Shown here one piece after another: positions 1 through 4,323 of a stretch of 46,261 nucleotides of DNA. Position 1 is the first letter of the stretch. Every line of letters starts with the position of its first letter. The notes beneath the pieces are model-generated. The model ran no database searches. It saw only the letters and a list, made by a program, of their open reading frames with translations, and was not told the origin of the DNA. The translations under genes were made by a program, and so were the position numbers. Origin of the DNA: Patescibacteria group bacterium (GTDB taxonomy: Bacteria; Patescibacteriota; Patescibacteriia; Patescibacteriales; GWC2-42-12). The DNA is taken from contig JAQVNC010000005.1 in NCBI GenBank assembly GCA_028703305.1, positions 1 through 46,261 of the forward strand, in the 5' to 3' direction.

Positions 1-110
1 TTTATAACAAAGCGATCTTTTAAAATTAAATATGGCTCACGTTTGATCATCTGTTCAATTTTTATTTTATGATTTTCGGGGTGCAATACTAAACGAGCAA
101 CAAACTGCTC
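1..110 (-). CDS. partial ORF running off the left edge (…EQFVARLVLHPENHKIKIEQMIKREPYLILKDRFVI…), function unknown
   Basis: Open minus-strand frame from just 3' of the tRNA to the window edge; no family recognised. Confidence 0.3.
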
Positions 111-121
111 AAGGTTCCTTA

Positions 122-195
122 TGGTCGGGCTGCCGGGAATTGAACCCGGGCTACATGCACCCCATGCATGCGTACTACCGTTATACTACAGCCCG
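122..195 (-). tRNA. tRNA-Pro (anticodon GGG), CCA encoded
   Basis: Cloverleaf read by eye on minus strand: acceptor CGGGCTG/CAGCCCG, anticodon arm CATGC-ATGGGGT-GCATG, T arm CCGGG-TTCAATT-CCCGG, discriminator A then CCA. Confidence 0.9.
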
Positions 196-198
196 AAG

Positions 199-241
199 AG
201 CTAGACGGGCAGATGGATAATACCATTACACCACAACCCGA
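199..241 (-). pseudogene. tRNA-like 5' half directly upstream of tRNA-Pro
   Basis: CGGGTTGTGGTGTAATGGTATTATCC resembles a tRNA acceptor plus D arm; no matching anticodon or T arm follows. Confidence 0.5.
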
Positions 242-334
242 TTTTAATTTTTGCGTAATTTTATAATAAAATTATACCAAAAAATGAACAATAAAAAAAG
301 AGCTGCCTAAGCGCCCTGTCAATTTTATTTTTTT

Positions 335-608
335 GACCAAAAAAGCTTCACCAAAATAGTGCCGAACAAGAATTGGCTCGTTCCAATGGGTCCTCTTTAA
401 AGAGGTTATTATCGGCCTGAATAAAAAGCTGAATGCCTCTGATCTAAGCCGCTAATAAATTTAACCCTGAATCCGCGCTCTCTTAAGCCGCGGCCGAAGA
501 AAAACGCGAGAAGCCAATTTTGTTTATTTGATCCAAAACTTGTGTCAGCTTTAGTGAAGCTTTTCCGCAGACGAATTGATTGTTAAATAACTCATCTAAC
601 CTAATTAT
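335..608 (-). ncRNA. candidate structured RNA of unknown class
   Basis: TATAAT at 609-614; perfect 11-bp long-range closing stem AAAAGCTTCAC (554-564) with GTGAAGCTTTT (341-351), followed by a T run; internal hairpins CCTCTTTAAAGAGG and ATTGGaacgagCCAAT. Confidence 0.4.
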
Positions 609-632
609 ATTATAGCACAATCTATAAAAAAG

Positions 633-662
633 AAAAGAGCCGGTTCAAGATTGAACCGGCCG
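633..662 (-). terminator. intrinsic terminator of the 688-1357 small-gene operon
   Basis: GCCGGTTCAA-tc-TTGAACCGGC followed by TCTTTTC-TTTTTT on the minus strand. Confidence 0.75.
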
Positions 663-687
663 TGTAGATAAGCGCCGATATGGCGCT

Positions 688-840
688 TTAATGAACAAAA
701 AAGGCGCTTTTTTTATTGCCAGGATTATGGCGCAGATTATGCAGACAGGCCAATCTGGTCGCCTGCTCTTTCCCTTGTTTTTCAAGTTGCTTGAGTTTTG
801 CCTGAAAATCAACTTCCCGATTATTATTTTTCTCCGCCAT
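688..840 (-). CDS. hypothetical small protein (50 aa, MAEKNNNREVDFQAKLKQLEKQ…)
   Basis: ORF with SD GGAGGGAG before ATG at 840; third gene of the small operon. Confidence 0.6.
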   Translation of the reverse strand: MAEKNNNREVDFQAKLKQLEKQGKEQATRLACLHNLRHNPGNKKSAFFVH

Positions 841-869
841 AGTTACTCCCTCCAAGTAATTTTTATGCA

Positions 870-1055
870 TTATGCCAGCCATACTGTTTTTGAATTAAGC
901 CGCCGCTCTATCTTTTCCCTGGCACTAAGCGTCTCAATAAGCGGGTGTGTGACTATTAGCGACCCGCCCTTAGCATGTTTTACCTCTTTAACTTCTGGCA
1001 GATTGCCTAGCAGTTGCTCTGCCTCTGATTTCGGAATATCTGACATTAGTTCCAT
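870..1055 (-). CDS. hypothetical small protein (61 aa, MELMSDIPKSEAEQLLGNLPEV…)
   Basis: ORF with SD GGGGAGGAG 8 nt before ATG. Confidence 0.6.
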   Translation of the reverse strand: MELMSDIPKSEAEQLLGNLPEVKEVKHAKGGSLIVTHPLIETLSAREKIERRLNSKTVWLA

Positions 1056-1087
1056 AATATCATCTCCTCCCCGTTGGCTTAGGCCTC

Positions 1088-1357
1088 TTAACCTTCTACG
1101 TTAGGCCAAATCTGTAATACCCTGTCCTTGCCATAATGATCAAGCAACTGTTGATGCGCCTTTCCGGCATCAGCATCAGTATCTCTAAGCTGAGCTAAAG
1201 TGCCGTCTTTTCCTTCATAAATCCTCCTTATTTCATCCACGCCGACTAACATATTCGGCGCGATGACCGTAGCCACTTTCTCGGGAGAAACTCCTTTTAT
1301 CATAACGACAACCAATTTTTCCCAAGTAATCTCTCTTCCCCAAATAGCTTTTTTCAT
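1088..1357 (-). CDS. hypothetical small protein (89 aa, MKKAIWGREITWEKLVVVMIKG…)
   Basis: ORF with SD AAGGAGG; first gene after attenuator A. Confidence 0.65.
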   Translation of the reverse strand: MKKAIWGREITWEKLVVVMIKGVSPEKVATVIAPNMLVGVDEIRRIYEGKDGTLAQLRDTDADAGKAHQQLLDHYGKDRVLQIWPNVEG

Positions 1358-1386
1358 GCTCTTTCCTCCTTTTTTTAAAGTTATTT

Positions 1387-1450
1387 TGTCATTTCCGCGG
1401 AGGCGGTAATCCAGAAATTAAACGCCGAATTACCAGCTCCGCGGCATGAC
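1387..1450. repeat. imperfect intergenic palindrome (GTCATTTCCGCGGAGGCGGTAATCC…GCGGCATGAC)
   Basis: Self-complementary ends; resembles the GTCATTCCCGCG…CGGGAATCCAG dispersed repeat type at 15745. Confidence 0.6.
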
Positions 1451-1469
1451 TTTTTTTAAAGAACTAAAC

Positions 1470-1507
1470 AAAAATAAAACCGACTCTCCTTTCGGAGAGC
1501 CGGTTCA
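1470..1507 (-). terminator. attenuator terminator A
   Basis: AACCGGCTCTCC-GAAA-GGAGAGTCGGTTTTATTTTTG, 12-bp stem with GNRA-type tetraloop, located upstream of the 1088-1357 gene. Confidence 0.8.
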
Positions 1508-1534
1508 TTTTCCCTAGTGAGTCTTAACTTATGA

Positions 1535-1630
1535 TCAACTAGTTAAAACACCACAAAAAACCGCTCTCCGTGAGAGAAAATAAAAGTAAAAGTAAAAGCT
1601 GAAAACGGTTTTTTGTATTGTCTTAATCAT
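1535..1630 (-). CDS. Phe/Tyr-rich leader peptide MIKTIQKTVFSFYFYFYFLSRRAVFCGVLTS
   Basis: Manual translation; 8 of 9 residues at positions 10-18 are F or Y; lies between promoter and terminator A; codons 21-25 contain a copy of the terminator 3' arm. Confidence 0.75.
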   Translation of the reverse strand: MIKTIQKTVFSFYFYFYFLSRRAVFCGVLTS

Positions 1631-1666
1631 AGTTGTTAATAAAGGTAATATTACTACCTGTGGATA

Positions 1667-1694
1667 ATTATAGCAAATATTAAATAAAAATCAA
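1667..1694 (-). promoter_or_regulatory. promoter of locus A
   Basis: TTGATT-N16-TATAAT. Confidence 0.7.
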
Positions 1695-1735
1695 GTTTAG
1701 AAAAAAATTTTTCTAAAAAAATAGCTAATTTTAAA

Positions 1736-1772
1736 TAAAAAAAGGGAGATGTTGTTTTTTACAATCTCCCTA
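1736..1772 (-). terminator. terminator after the 84-aa gene
   Basis: GGGAGATTGT-aaaaa-ACAACATCTCCC followed by TTTTTTT. Confidence 0.7.
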
Positions 1773-1794
1773 TTTAGCAAAGCCGCTTTTAAAT

Positions 1795-2049
1795 TTAAGT
1801 TAGAGCATGGATAATTACGGCGGCCTGATCAAAATACTTCGCGCCGGCGCAAAGCTTTTTTAGCTTTTCGCGATAATTGGGATCTGCTAAACTGATCGGT
1901 CTGCCATAAAAAGTTAGGCCAGATCCTTCGCCGTTGTGCCCGTGGCGAATTACCACACTATGGTTTTTGGGGATTGCCGCTCTAGCCTGATCCATAGTTT
2001 CAAAAAACTGCAACTTAACCGCCACTACCCCGCCGGAATTGTTTTTCAT
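1795..2049 (-). CDS. hypothetical small protein (84 aa, MKNNSGGVVAVKLQFFETMDQARAAIPKNHSVVIRHG…)
   Basis: ORF with SD AAGGAGGG before ATG at 2049. Confidence 0.65.
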   Translation of the reverse strand: MKNNSGGVVAVKLQFFETMDQARAAIPKNHSVVIRHGHNGEGSGLTFYGRPISLADPNYREKLKKLCAGAKYFDQAAVIIHALT

Positions 2050-2089
2050 AATCTTTCCCTCCTTTTTTAAAATGAACAATTATTTTATA

Positions 2090-2123
2090 ATCAAAAAACC
2101 GCCCTGGTTTAGGGTGGCTTTTT
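2090..2123 (-). terminator. attenuator terminator B
   Basis: AAAAGCCACCCT-aaacc-AGGGCGGTTTTTT upstream of the 84-aa gene. Confidence 0.8.
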
Positions 2124-2152
2124 ATATTTTAACTTATTTTTATTTATCTTTT

Positions 2153-2236
2153 TTAAGCCGCCCTGAAACCAATAGCGATAATGCCATTAATAATAATGGT
2201 TTGGCTGATTATGGTTTGTTTGGCGCTTAAATTCAT
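2153..2236 (-). CDS. Ile-rich leader peptide MNLSAKQTIISQTIIINGIIAIGFRAA
   Basis: Manual translation; 8 Ile in 27 codons; ATG 9 nt after a TATAAT -10; 3' end contains a copy of the terminator 3' arm. Confidence 0.75.
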   Translation of the reverse strand: MNLSAKQTIISQTIIINGIIAIGFRAA

Positions 2237-2245
2237 ATGTGAATA

Positions 2246-2273
2246 ATTATAGCAAAGATATGAAATTTGTCAA
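2246..2273 (-). promoter_or_regulatory. promoter of locus B
   Basis: TTGACA-N16-TATAAT, consensus-like. Confidence 0.85.
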
Positions 2274-2281
2274 AAAATAAA

Positions 2282-2314
2282 AAAAAGGGGGGAAATATTA
2301 ATAATCTCCCCTCT
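2282..2314 (-). terminator. terminator after the 80-aa Cys-rich gene
   Basis: AGGGGAgattattaatattTCCCCCCT followed by TTTTTTTT. Confidence 0.65.
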
Positions 2315-2324
2315 GATGCCGGCG

Positions 2325-2567
2325 CTATTTATTTCCTATATAATTAACGCCAGGAAATCTTGCCATCTTGTTTATTGCTTCTTCCGTGGATTTAGCGGCG
2401 CGAATAGATTCAGCCATCCGCCTATTCATCAATATTGTGTCCTGGTTGCACTGGCAATGAAAGCAATGATCCTCGCCAGCATTTTTAGAATTTCCGCAAG
2501 CACATGTCTCATCGCCGCCCAGAACATCATCCAAGCTCAATAACCGCACCTCTTTTTTATCTGCCAT
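2325..2567 (-). CDS. hypothetical small Cys/His-rich protein (80 aa), possible zinc ribbon
   Basis: CACGNSKNAGEDHCFHCQC Cys/His cluster; SD GGGAGGG before ATG. Confidence 0.65.
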   Translation of the reverse strand: MADKKEVRLLSLDDVLGGDETCACGNSKNAGEDHCFHCQCNQDTILMNRRMAESIRAAKSTEEAINKMARFPGVNYIGNK

Positions 2568-2601
2568 CTCTCATCCCTCCCTAATTTTAAAAGGTCAAAA
2601 T

Positions 2602-2634
2602 ACAAAAAAGCCACCCGTTTTTAAGGGTGGCTTT
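2602..2634 (-). terminator. attenuator terminator C
   Basis: AAAGCCACCC-ttaaaaac-GGGTGGCTTTTTT upstream of the 80-aa gene. Confidence 0.85.
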
Positions 2635-2657
2635 ACTATGTAATCTTACTAAACTAT

Positions 2658-2741
2658 TTAGGACATACGCGAACAAGCCACCCGATAAGGTAGTAACAAC
2701 AATAGACCCAATAATAAGCTTTTGTTTATGGCTTGTATCAT
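2658..2741 (-). CDS. Leu-rich leader peptide MIQAINKSLLLGLLLLLPYRVACSRMS
   Basis: Manual translation; 8 of 9 residues at positions 9-17 are Leu; ATG 9 nt after a TAAAAT -10; codons 20-22 contain a copy of the terminator 3' arm. Confidence 0.8.
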   Translation of the reverse strand: MIQAINKSLLLGLLLLLPYRVACSRMS

Positions 2742-2750
2742 AATAATATA

Positions 2751-2779
2751 ATTTTAATCCAAATTTTTTATTTCGTCAA
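2751..2779 (-). promoter_or_regulatory. promoter of locus C
   Basis: TTGACG-N17-TAAAAT; -35 overlaps the 3' end of the upstream kinase ORF. Confidence 0.7.
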
Positions 2780-3865
2780 ACTTTGATTTTTTATCACGGC
2801 GGCCAGCTGCTTAATTAAAGCCAAGGCCACGGGCGGAGCCAACAGGCTGTAAGATTCAACTCCTTCGTCGTCTTTAACAGCATATGACTTTTCGCCGACT
2901 TTAACTTCGCCGTCAGCGCCAAGCTCGTAGACATATTCGGGCGTGATTTCATAATCATCAACATAGTCTTTGGCAACATCAACCGGAATGGCGTTTCTAA
3001 GCAAAATCCTGGGCACGCCATGCAGGGTAAAAACTTTTTCTATTAATTTATCATCTAACTCCAGCCTCTCTCTGATAGTTTCAATGCCTAAATTATCTCC
3101 TTCTTTGCCGATCATGCGCGCGCCCTTAGATGAACAATCCGATTGGTCGCATTTTAAGAAAAATTCATTGGCTTCTTTGTCAAAGCCGACTTCTTTGGTA
3201 GCGAAAAGCTTTAGGTTTCTTGGCGTATGGCAGACCGGGCAGATGACCCTAAATTTCATGCGTTCGTCTAAAACCGATTCCGGAATACTGATGGCTATAA
3301 AAATATCCAGGTCGCTCCTATAATCAATTAAATTGCTTAAAAATAAAGAATATGATATCTGGTCAAGTTCGCGCGGAAAGCCGTCAATGAATAATGATTT
3401 TTTCGGCCATTTGCTTATTTGCATTTTAATCAAGGCTAAAATAAATTCGGTGGGCAGAAGGGTTTTTTGATCTCGGCCGAGCAAAGCGTTTATGGCGTCG
3501 TCAATTGAGATATAGCCGCGATAATTTTTTTCCATAAATTCCATTATTTCGGCTTTTTTGGTTTCATCTTCCATGGCCGCGTGGGCGTCGCGAACGATAT
3601 CGCCCACGGAAATATGGCCGATTTTATCTTCGCCGAAAATTTCTTTCATCAGCTTGGAATAAGTGCCTTTACCGGAATTCTTTTTGCCCAGAAGATAGGC
3701 GACAAAAGTATTGCTTTCCAAATATTTTTTGATTTGAGCGATTTCTTCGCCGGCCTTAGCTTCAAAATATTCTTTGCGTTCAACCGGATCGGATAAATTA
3801 AATTTTTTCGTTACGCCCTCGGTTTTAGCCTTAAAATAAGGAAAATCTTTTTCGTAGGTTTTCAT
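2768..3865 (-). CDS. adenylate kinase-like nucleoside monophosphate kinase with N- and C-terminal extensions
   Basis: P-loop LLGKKNSGKGTYSK, DGFPRELDQ motif, CPVC…C…C Zn-lid-like insert. Confidence 0.75.
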   Translation of the reverse strand: MKTYEKDFPYFKAKTEGVTKKFNLSDPVERKEYFEAKAGEEIAQIKKYLESNTFVAYLLGKKNSGKGTYSKLMKEIFGEDKIGHISVGDIVRDAHAAMEDETKKAEIMEFMEKNYRGYISIDDAINALLGRDQKTLLPTEFILALIKMQISKWPKKSLFIDGFPRELDQISYSLFLSNLIDYRSDLDIFIAISIPESVLDERMKFRVICPVCHTPRNLKLFATKEVGFDKEANEFFLKCDQSDCSSKGARMIGKEGDNLGIETIRERLELDDKLIEKVFTLHGVPRILLRNAIPVDVAKDYVDDYEITPEYVYELGADGEVKVGEKSYAVKDDEGVESYSLLAPPVALALIKQLAAVIKNQSLTK

Positions 3866-3942
3866 AATGTCTTTTTTAAAAAATATACCCCCAGAACAAG
3901 CTGACGGTCATGAATAAGTTAATTATTGATTATTTATCTCTT

Positions 3943-4323
3943 CTAAAGTTTTAAAGCTTTTTTAATTTTTTCACTAACTTGGCCCGGCGTCAAACTGGCT
4001 TTTACCAGATAATCCAAAGCACCCATCGCTTGTCCCTTAGCTTTATCTTCTTCGGTGCCTAAATTAGTTAGCATAATCACCGGAATATCTTTTGTGATTT
4101 CATCTTTTTTTACTTGATCCAAGACGGAAAATCCGTCCAATTGCGGTAAAATCACGTCCAGCATAATAATATCCGGTTTTTCTTTTTTGGCCAATTCTAA
4201 GCCAACAACGCCGTTATCGGCGACAAAAACCTCAAAGCCGTCAGCTTCAAACTTTGTTTTATACATTGAGCTGATCATGGGATCATCTTCAACCACCAAA
4301 ATTTTCTTGTTATTTTTCTCCAT
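3943..4323 (-). CDS. single-domain response regulator (REC only)
   Basis: KILVVEDDPMISSMY…PDIIMLDVILPQLDGFSVL…PVIMLTNL; start refined to MEKNNKK. Confidence 0.85.
   Translation of the reverse strand: MEKNNKKILVVEDDPMISSMYKTKFEADGFEVFVADNGVVGLELAKKEKPDIIMLDVILPQLDGFSVLDQVKKDEITKDIPVIMLTNLGTEEDKAKGQAMGALDYLVKASLTPGQVSEKIKKALKL

Follow-up and report, generated by a model that had tools for sequence, protein, structure and literature searches.

A likely isoleucine-sensing leader-peptide attenuator before an orphan gene in a Patescibacterium

What is an isoleucine-rich leader doing in front of a gene with no known homologue, in a genome from which the pathway is absent? The question is raised by a locus, here called B, in a 46,261-nucleotide stretch of a Patescibacteria group bacterium (contig JAQVNC010000005.1) that we refer to as the window, meaning the whole stretch of DNA that was analysed. 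Our results make it likely that B is a ribosome-mediated, Ile-sensing transcription attenuator of the trp/ilv leader-peptide type that drives an 84-aa gene; there are no expression, ribosome profiling or protein data for it. The attenuation mechanism itself is already known. Like the trpL, leuL, ilvL and pheL attenuators of E. coli (Rfam Trp/Leu/Phe_leader), B consists of a promoter, a short leader ORF rich in one amino acid, 1:2, 2:3 and 3:4 hairpins and a terminator before the gene. Unlike them, it is found in a Patescibacterium, its message is nearly leaderless, its gene is an orphan and its genome is without the pathway.

Anatomy and alternative folds of the isoleucine cassette

The attenuator occupies the minus strand at 2273-2092, where a consensus promoter and a leader are followed by a mutually exclusive antiterminator and terminator; all features of B given below are on this strand. 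The promoter (2246..2273), TTGACA-N16-TATAAT with a TG preceding the -10 box, matches 12/12 consensus positions, and its TTGAC is kept in 6/6 homologues of the genus and family (alignment A2). The leader peptide ORF (2153..2236), supported by its translation and by homologous Ile-rich leaders, has 27 codons and encodes MNLSAKQTIISQTIIINGIIAIGFRAA, with the stop at 2153. Eight of the 27 codons specify Ile (9, 10, 14, 15, 16, 19, 20 and 22). The ATG, at 2236, lies 9 nt past the -10 box, which makes for a nearly leaderless message.

The classical four-segment layout is complete in B. Segment 1 (TTTAAGCGCC, 2222..2231) is the protector arm, which pairs with segment 2 if the leader is not translated; in the minimum-energy fold of the whole, free leader this 1:2 hairpin joins TTTAAGCGCC to GGCGGCTTAA. 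Such a protector is not obligatory for every member of the leader-peptide attenuator class. Segment 2 (GGTTTCAGGGCGGCTT, 2155..2170) is the 5' arm of the antiterminator and segment 3 (AAGCCACCCTAAACC, 2106..2120) is common to antiterminator and terminator, both being supported by the fold and by relatives. Segments 2 and 3 pair as 6+4+5 bp, interrupted by one bulge and one C.A mismatch. The fold also places an intrinsic terminator hairpin (segments 3:4, 2092..2124) with its T run between leader and gene; its arms, AAAAAGCCACCCT..AGGGCGGTTTTTT, form a stem of about -13 to -14.5 kcal/mol that contains an A.C mismatch. Beyond it the sequence shows a Shine-Dalgarno motif, AGGAGGG (2057..2063), whose AGGAGG is some 8 bases 5' of the ATG of the 84-aa gene (1795..2049, from the ORF list and homology searches), and a terminator for that gene, GGGAGATTGTAAAAAACAACATCTCCC plus a T run, can be read at 1737..1770.

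We folded transcript B from every ribosome position. For a ribosome placed on Ile codons 9-16, the lowest-energy fold (-31.3 to -25.3 kcal/mol) contains the antiterminator and no terminator; at the earliest regulatory codons the antiterminator stands at -31.3 kcal/mol versus about -22.9 for the best alternative that keeps the terminator, a gap of some 8 kcal/mol. From codon 19 through the stop, the terminator is the minimum, at about -15 kcal/mol, and a ribosome at the leader stop leaves it as the sole option. Promoter, leader, alternative folds and their dependence on ribosome position are thus shown by computation. In the mechanism that we propose, RNA polymerase would start at the consensus promoter and a ribosome would translate the nearly leaderless, Ile-rich leader. 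With ample charged tRNA-Ile, the ribosome would reach the stop and cover segment 2, and segments 3:4 would form the terminator; with charged tRNA-Ile scarce, it would stall on the Ile codons, 2:3 would pair, no terminator would form and the 84-aa gene would be transcribed. Without translation of the leader, pairing of 1 with 2 would keep the terminator on. That the switch responds in the cell to charged tRNA-Ile is inferred.

A first-pass annotation, made without database searches, had proposed the promoter, leader, pairings, terminator and 84-aa ORF, and all of them are present, on a strand (minus) that it did not state. The promoter that it called near consensus, the 8 Ile codons in 27 and the antiterminator of about 15 bp with one bulge and one mismatch have all held. 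It had allowed that an antiterminator not favoured in folding would refute the proposal, and this is not met, since the antiterminator is favoured by about 8 kcal/mol when the ribosome stalls at codons 9-16. What it overlooked is the 1:2 protector hairpin and the position of the start codon so close to the -10 box. Its description of the 84-aa product as an orphan holds in that the protein is without homologue; control of the gene itself is inferred.

Chance and conservation

One rival reading is that an Ile-rich short ORF merely happens to precede an ordinary terminator. In its favour, AT-rich DNA in general makes Ile-rich short ORFs common, and the evidence for B from the window only is modest. 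When leader B is recoded synonymously, about 4% of the trials match or beat the native antiterminator. Nor does the composite score set B apart genome-wide: it is equalled by several unrelated, non-attenuator sites, in a scan that covered the intergenic sites of 725 kb of the 925-kb genome (78%). Within that scanned 78%, no sites other than the three cassettes of the window are clustered or have a conserved amino-acid leader, and one further intergenic site of comparable strength is a short hydrophobic ORF. It is because of the comparative evidence, and not of the window alone, that we place B beyond chance. Ile leaders are conserved at the same place in related genomes and stand before citramalate synthase in two others, and two further matching cassettes lie within 1.7 kb of B. 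The synonymous-recoding test gives P ~2e-6 when 11 Ile leaders are combined and 2.5e-4 with one leader per genus. Taken together, this all but excludes chance, and we return to B as an attenuator.

Conservation is shown by computation. We found 12 intact Ile leaders in the order, with 6-11 Ile codons and antiterminator/terminator alternatives. Besides the window, close ones are found in the same genus (G003) and family (G008, G010, G011, G012), with a more divergent one in G001; the more distant ones within the order are those of G017, G021, G026, G045 and G057. Switching between antiterminator and terminator was likewise computed for the leaders of relatives. A detector that demanded the antiterminator as global minimum missed the two sister cassettes of the window, A and C, and a co-transcriptional criterion was used instead. 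The first-pass annotation had also named disruption of the leader ORF in close relatives as a refutation; the leader is intact in the six close relatives just listed and broken only in G002.

The cassettes of several family members remain intact at 70-84% DNA identity, and the Ile cassette adjoins the aromatic cassette in G003, G008, G012 and G011 as in the window. Stems of the Ile leaders fall into three classes (GGGCGG, UUUGAAGAC and GGUGGAAGU), in each of which the complementarity of segments 2, 3 and 4 is kept. In G010, a one-base deletion turns the end of the peptide from FRAA into SGRLK and leaves the segment 2 RNA core, GCGGCTTAA, unchanged; this stretch is therefore conserved as RNA rather than as peptide. 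Base-pair covariation inside the close family is thin, with double-sided changes at one column triplet only, 158/204/227 (C-G-T, C-G-C, T-A-T). Common descent of B with the Ile leaders from outside the family is inferred from leader composition, architecture and neighbourhood, without strong DNA identity.

Sister cassettes and the genes behind them

The window holds three tandem cassettes, for Leu (C), Ile (B) and Phe/Tyr/Trp (A), each before small genes without known homologues. The two sisters flank B and both are inside 1.7 kb, on the minus strand. Cassette C has a promoter (2751..2779, consensus scan), a Leu leader, MIQAINKSLLLGLLLLLPYRVACSRMS (2658..2741, translation and homologues), a terminator (2607..2634, terminator scan) and a gene for an 80-aa cysteine-rich protein with no known homologue (2325..2567, ORF list and searches); leaders homologous to that of C are found directly 5' of LeuA in L066 and L078. 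In cassette A, the promoter (1667..1694, consensus scan) is followed by the aromatic leader MIKTIQKTVFSFYFYFYFLSRRAVFCGVLTS (1535..1630, translation and homologues), a terminator (1477..1506, terminator scan and alignment) and, from the ORF list, an 89-aa protein (1088..1357) and then ORFs of 61 aa (1055-870) and 50 aa (840-688). Searches of 60 relatives gave no match to the proteins of A and C.

At the DNA level the aromatic cassette forms a recognisable family, with long homologous matches across many genera of the order. It matches at E <= 0.01 in 84 of 146 related genomes, of which only the 35 or so strongest are long, the others being short, promoter-like or due to chance. We considered that it might be a structural RNA like 6S, as its frame is broken in G001, and rejected this on an alignment of 11 copies, the others of which have an aromatic leader.

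Several observations on these neighbourhoods are recorded in their own right. Between the leader stop and the terminator of the aromatic cassette (~1507-1535, minus strand; alignment A1), AAGTTAAAACTCACTAGGGAAAA is near-invariant across the order and belongs to neither terminator arm. The same cassette (1476-1646, minus strand) gives a full-length match to the Bacteroides sRNA model BTnc231 (RF04180) with E 0.0014, which is below cutoff; it is conceivable that BTnc231 is an aromatic leader attenuator instead of a free sRNA. A sequence resembling a tRNA 5' half (window 196-240, minus strand) directly adjoins tRNA-Pro (122-195), and the attenuator island as a whole lies between an adenylate-kinase-like gene and tRNA-Pro, an arrangement also seen in G007 and G001. 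Leaders that are candidates for further amino acids, rich in Asn (MNNNNNNWL.., QLNNDNNNGNND) or in Tyr (NKYYYYGYKRP), precede small ORFs in L078 (11481-11590, plus strand), L072 (397-271, minus strand) and L089/L090. Near one Ile and one Leu cassette, L082 (10397-10789, minus strand) encodes a 130-aa cargo with about nine identical KEDVSGL repeats.

What the same kinds of cassette precede in relatives, something that the first-pass annotation could not see, is shown by computation. Leader-peptide attenuators as a rule, though not by definition, govern genes for making, importing or charging the amino acid that they sense. Citramalate synthase is the committed enzyme of Ile synthesis. In G021 it begins 51 nt behind the Ile terminator (TIGR00977, 714.7 bits against a cutoff of 450), and in G026 it follows the Ile cassette with 500 bits, in a copy that has one in-frame stop. 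A Leu leader is followed by LeuA in G044, G046, G051, G056 and G024. Aromatic leaders are followed by DAHP synthase in G034 and G015, and in G006 with one small ORF intervening; in G055 the aromatic leader precedes a small ORF, prephenate dehydratase, prephenate dehydrogenase/chorismate mutase and an aminotransferase. With such enzymes behind the cassettes of relatives, the sensed amino acids are therefore supported independently of codon counts, and we infer that the committed steps present in such relatives, LeuA or citramalate synthase, are controlled by starvation. Separately, L067 (5115-8501, minus strand) carries an aromatic cassette, a small ORF, a prephenate dehydratase without ACT domain, a prephenate dehydrogenase-chorismate mutase fusion and an aminotransferase, in a genome from which chorismate synthase is absent.

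These contexts bear on another reading, in which what matters is a trans activity of the leader peptide itself or of the terminated leader RNA, with the gene behind it a mere bystander. Leader peptides with roles in trans do exist (peTrpL, PMC7298713), and the weak, below-cutoff match of the aromatic sister RNA to BTnc231 can be counted in favour. Against it, relatives preserve the RNA core but differ in the frame in which the last part of the leader peptide is read, each of the intact Ile cassettes examined has a downstream gene bearing a Shine-Dalgarno motif, and in G021 and G026 this gene encodes the Ile-committed enzyme. We hold a trans role to be very unlikely and keep to attenuation in cis.

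Pathway absence, small cargo proteins and meaning

The absence of the pathway is shown by computation. The genome of the window (98% complete) contains no HMGL-like domain (PF00682), DAHP synthase (PF00793), PF00920 or PF01264. Dihydroxy-acid dehydratase (IlvD, PF00920) and chorismate synthase (PF01264) are absent in all 61 genomes of the order that were searched, and both were detected in 14/14 control genomes, so that even the holders of LeuA or citramalate synthase are without the full known pathway. This is in line with open-access literature, in which Patescibacteria are described as largely devoid of amino-acid synthesis (PMC12455944). As cassettes stand before pathway enzymes in relatives and the pathway is missing here, the attenuator has outlived the pathway. 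In the scenario that we propose, a group of attenuators that directly precedes citramalate synthase in two relatives would have lost the enzyme and the pathway in this lineage, and the switch would have been retained before a small, fast-evolving gene made on Ile shortage. Production and usefulness of the 84-aa protein, and a part for it in coping with Ile shortage, are inferences.

The 84-aa protein has no Pfam family, even at E<=5, and no relative above noise in 146 related genomes, where one marginal, interrupted hit was obtained; pattern scans of genome and viral contig collections returned nothing. AlphaFold on the lone sequence was uninformative (pLDDT 48). Most of the collected cargo ORFs are orphans, 80 of 114 being singletons. 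A LeuA/CimA allosteric-domain profile, made from enzymes of the order itself, showed four small proteins, in G017, G008, G018 and G036, to be stand-alone copies of that domain (PF08502). The 140-aa protein of G017, whose genome lacks the catalytic domain, matches Pfam PF08502 with E 9.5e-30. The first of the cargo proteins after the Ile cassette in G008 reaches 5e-8, and those of the Leu cassettes in G018 and G036 reach about 1e-7. No shuffled sequence attained the scores of these four. As side observations, a stand-alone PF08502 lies behind a Cys/Tyr-rich leader in L063 (7757-8179, plus strand), in a genome without the LeuA catalytic domain, and diverged stand-alone copies of the LeuA allosteric domain are present in L062, L069 and L070.

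Three candidate identities for the 84-aa protein were rejected. It is not supported as a PF08502 domain (no Pfam at E<=5, hhalign probability 0.1, no HMM score), nor as kin of the G003 cargo or of the CimA-like cargo family by BLAST and profile comparison; a resemblance of the B or G003 protein to the second half of the LeuA allosteric domain, noticed by eye, was not upheld by comparisons. The Ile-cargo family of G010, G012 and G008 may possibly be related to citramalate synthase, which is suggestive only (best enzyme hit E 0.005, hhalign P 0.0012, single sequences no better than shuffles). Small cargo genes shared by pairs of relatives evolve as proteins: pN is well below pS in 8 pairs from other cassettes, and dN/dS is ~0.1-0.4 where dS is estimable. 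For the 84-aa gene there is no homologue pair to measure, and selection on it is inferred from this other cargo.

It could still be argued that B is a relic, the decaying remnant of a vanished citramalate synthase operon, and that it may still fold in front of a functionless 84-aa ORF. Pathway and enzyme are indeed absent here, the 84-aa protein has no homologue, and clear relics are known: in the genus-mate G002 a stop interrupts the Ile leader at codon 7, no gene comes after and the terminator runs into a tRNA, and in G001 the aromatic leader has a broken frame, again with no gene behind it. Yet in these cases broken leaders coincide with the loss of the cargo gene, which speaks for the maintenance of intact cassettes. 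The window and several family members have kept promoter, Ile codons, alternative pairing, Shine-Dalgarno motif and open frame intact, and the cargo of other cassettes is under purifying selection. We consider the relic unlikely and favour a maintained Ile switch.

According to a paper of 2010 (PMC2965389), leader-peptide attenuators had until then not been shown outside Proteobacteria and Actinobacteria, to which it added Firmicutes. In the open literature that we searched (subscription literature was outside the scope), no report describes attenuation by leader peptides for Patescibacteria, Parcubacteria or the candidate phyla radiation. None of the Rfam leader families (Trp, Leu, His, Thr, Phe) reached cutoff in scans at gathering and at relaxed thresholds; tRNA alone did, Phe_leader scoring 24 bits versus a cutoff of 55; the T-box covariance model had no match over 1-4000 even at E <= 5. 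B resembles the candidate leaders upstream of ilvB, trp and leuS in Actinobacteria (PMC1262725), which include branched-chain leader peptides with terminators and were found by comparative genomics. Their targets are biosynthetic operons or tRNA synthetase genes, whereas those of the window are small orphans, with enzymes only in relatives; the cassette of B is, moreover, Ile-specific, and its counterparts in two relatives precede citramalate synthase. The Bacillus His leader upstream of hisS*/hisZ (PMC2965389) is similar to B in placing a leader peptide on genes outside a classical biosynthetic operon, but its target is a tRNA synthetase paralogue or HisZ and that of B an orphan small protein. 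What is probably new is the lineage and an Ile-only switch that is tied to citramalate synthase in relatives; the same holds for the tandem arrangement of switches that sense different amino acids and for their survival before orphan small genes where the pathway is missing.

A bolder reading, which we think unlikely and offer as a hypothesis only, is that these amino-acid-specific attenuators control products acting on the metabolism of the partner. The products would be committed-step enzymes (citramalate synthase, LeuA, DAHP synthase, prephenate dehydratase/dehydrogenase), stand-alone LeuA/CimA allosteric domains and small fast-evolving proteins such as that of 84 aa; made solely under starvation for the amino acid in question, they would raise or release the partner's own synthesis. 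If true, this would explain why no complete pathway is found in the order genomes searched despite the persistence of committed enzymes and switches.

On the more likely reading of B as an Ile-sensing attenuator, single-amino-acid starvation switches have been kept past the loss of the pathway, before small proteins that evade homology searches. The free-standing LeuA/CimA allosteric domains behind the Ile and Leu switches of relatives offer a lead to the function of such proteins. For the orphans an inducing condition can now be predicted, something seldom possible in uncultured host-dependent bacteria, and it becomes testable how such bacteria respond when the amino-acid supply of their partner runs short.
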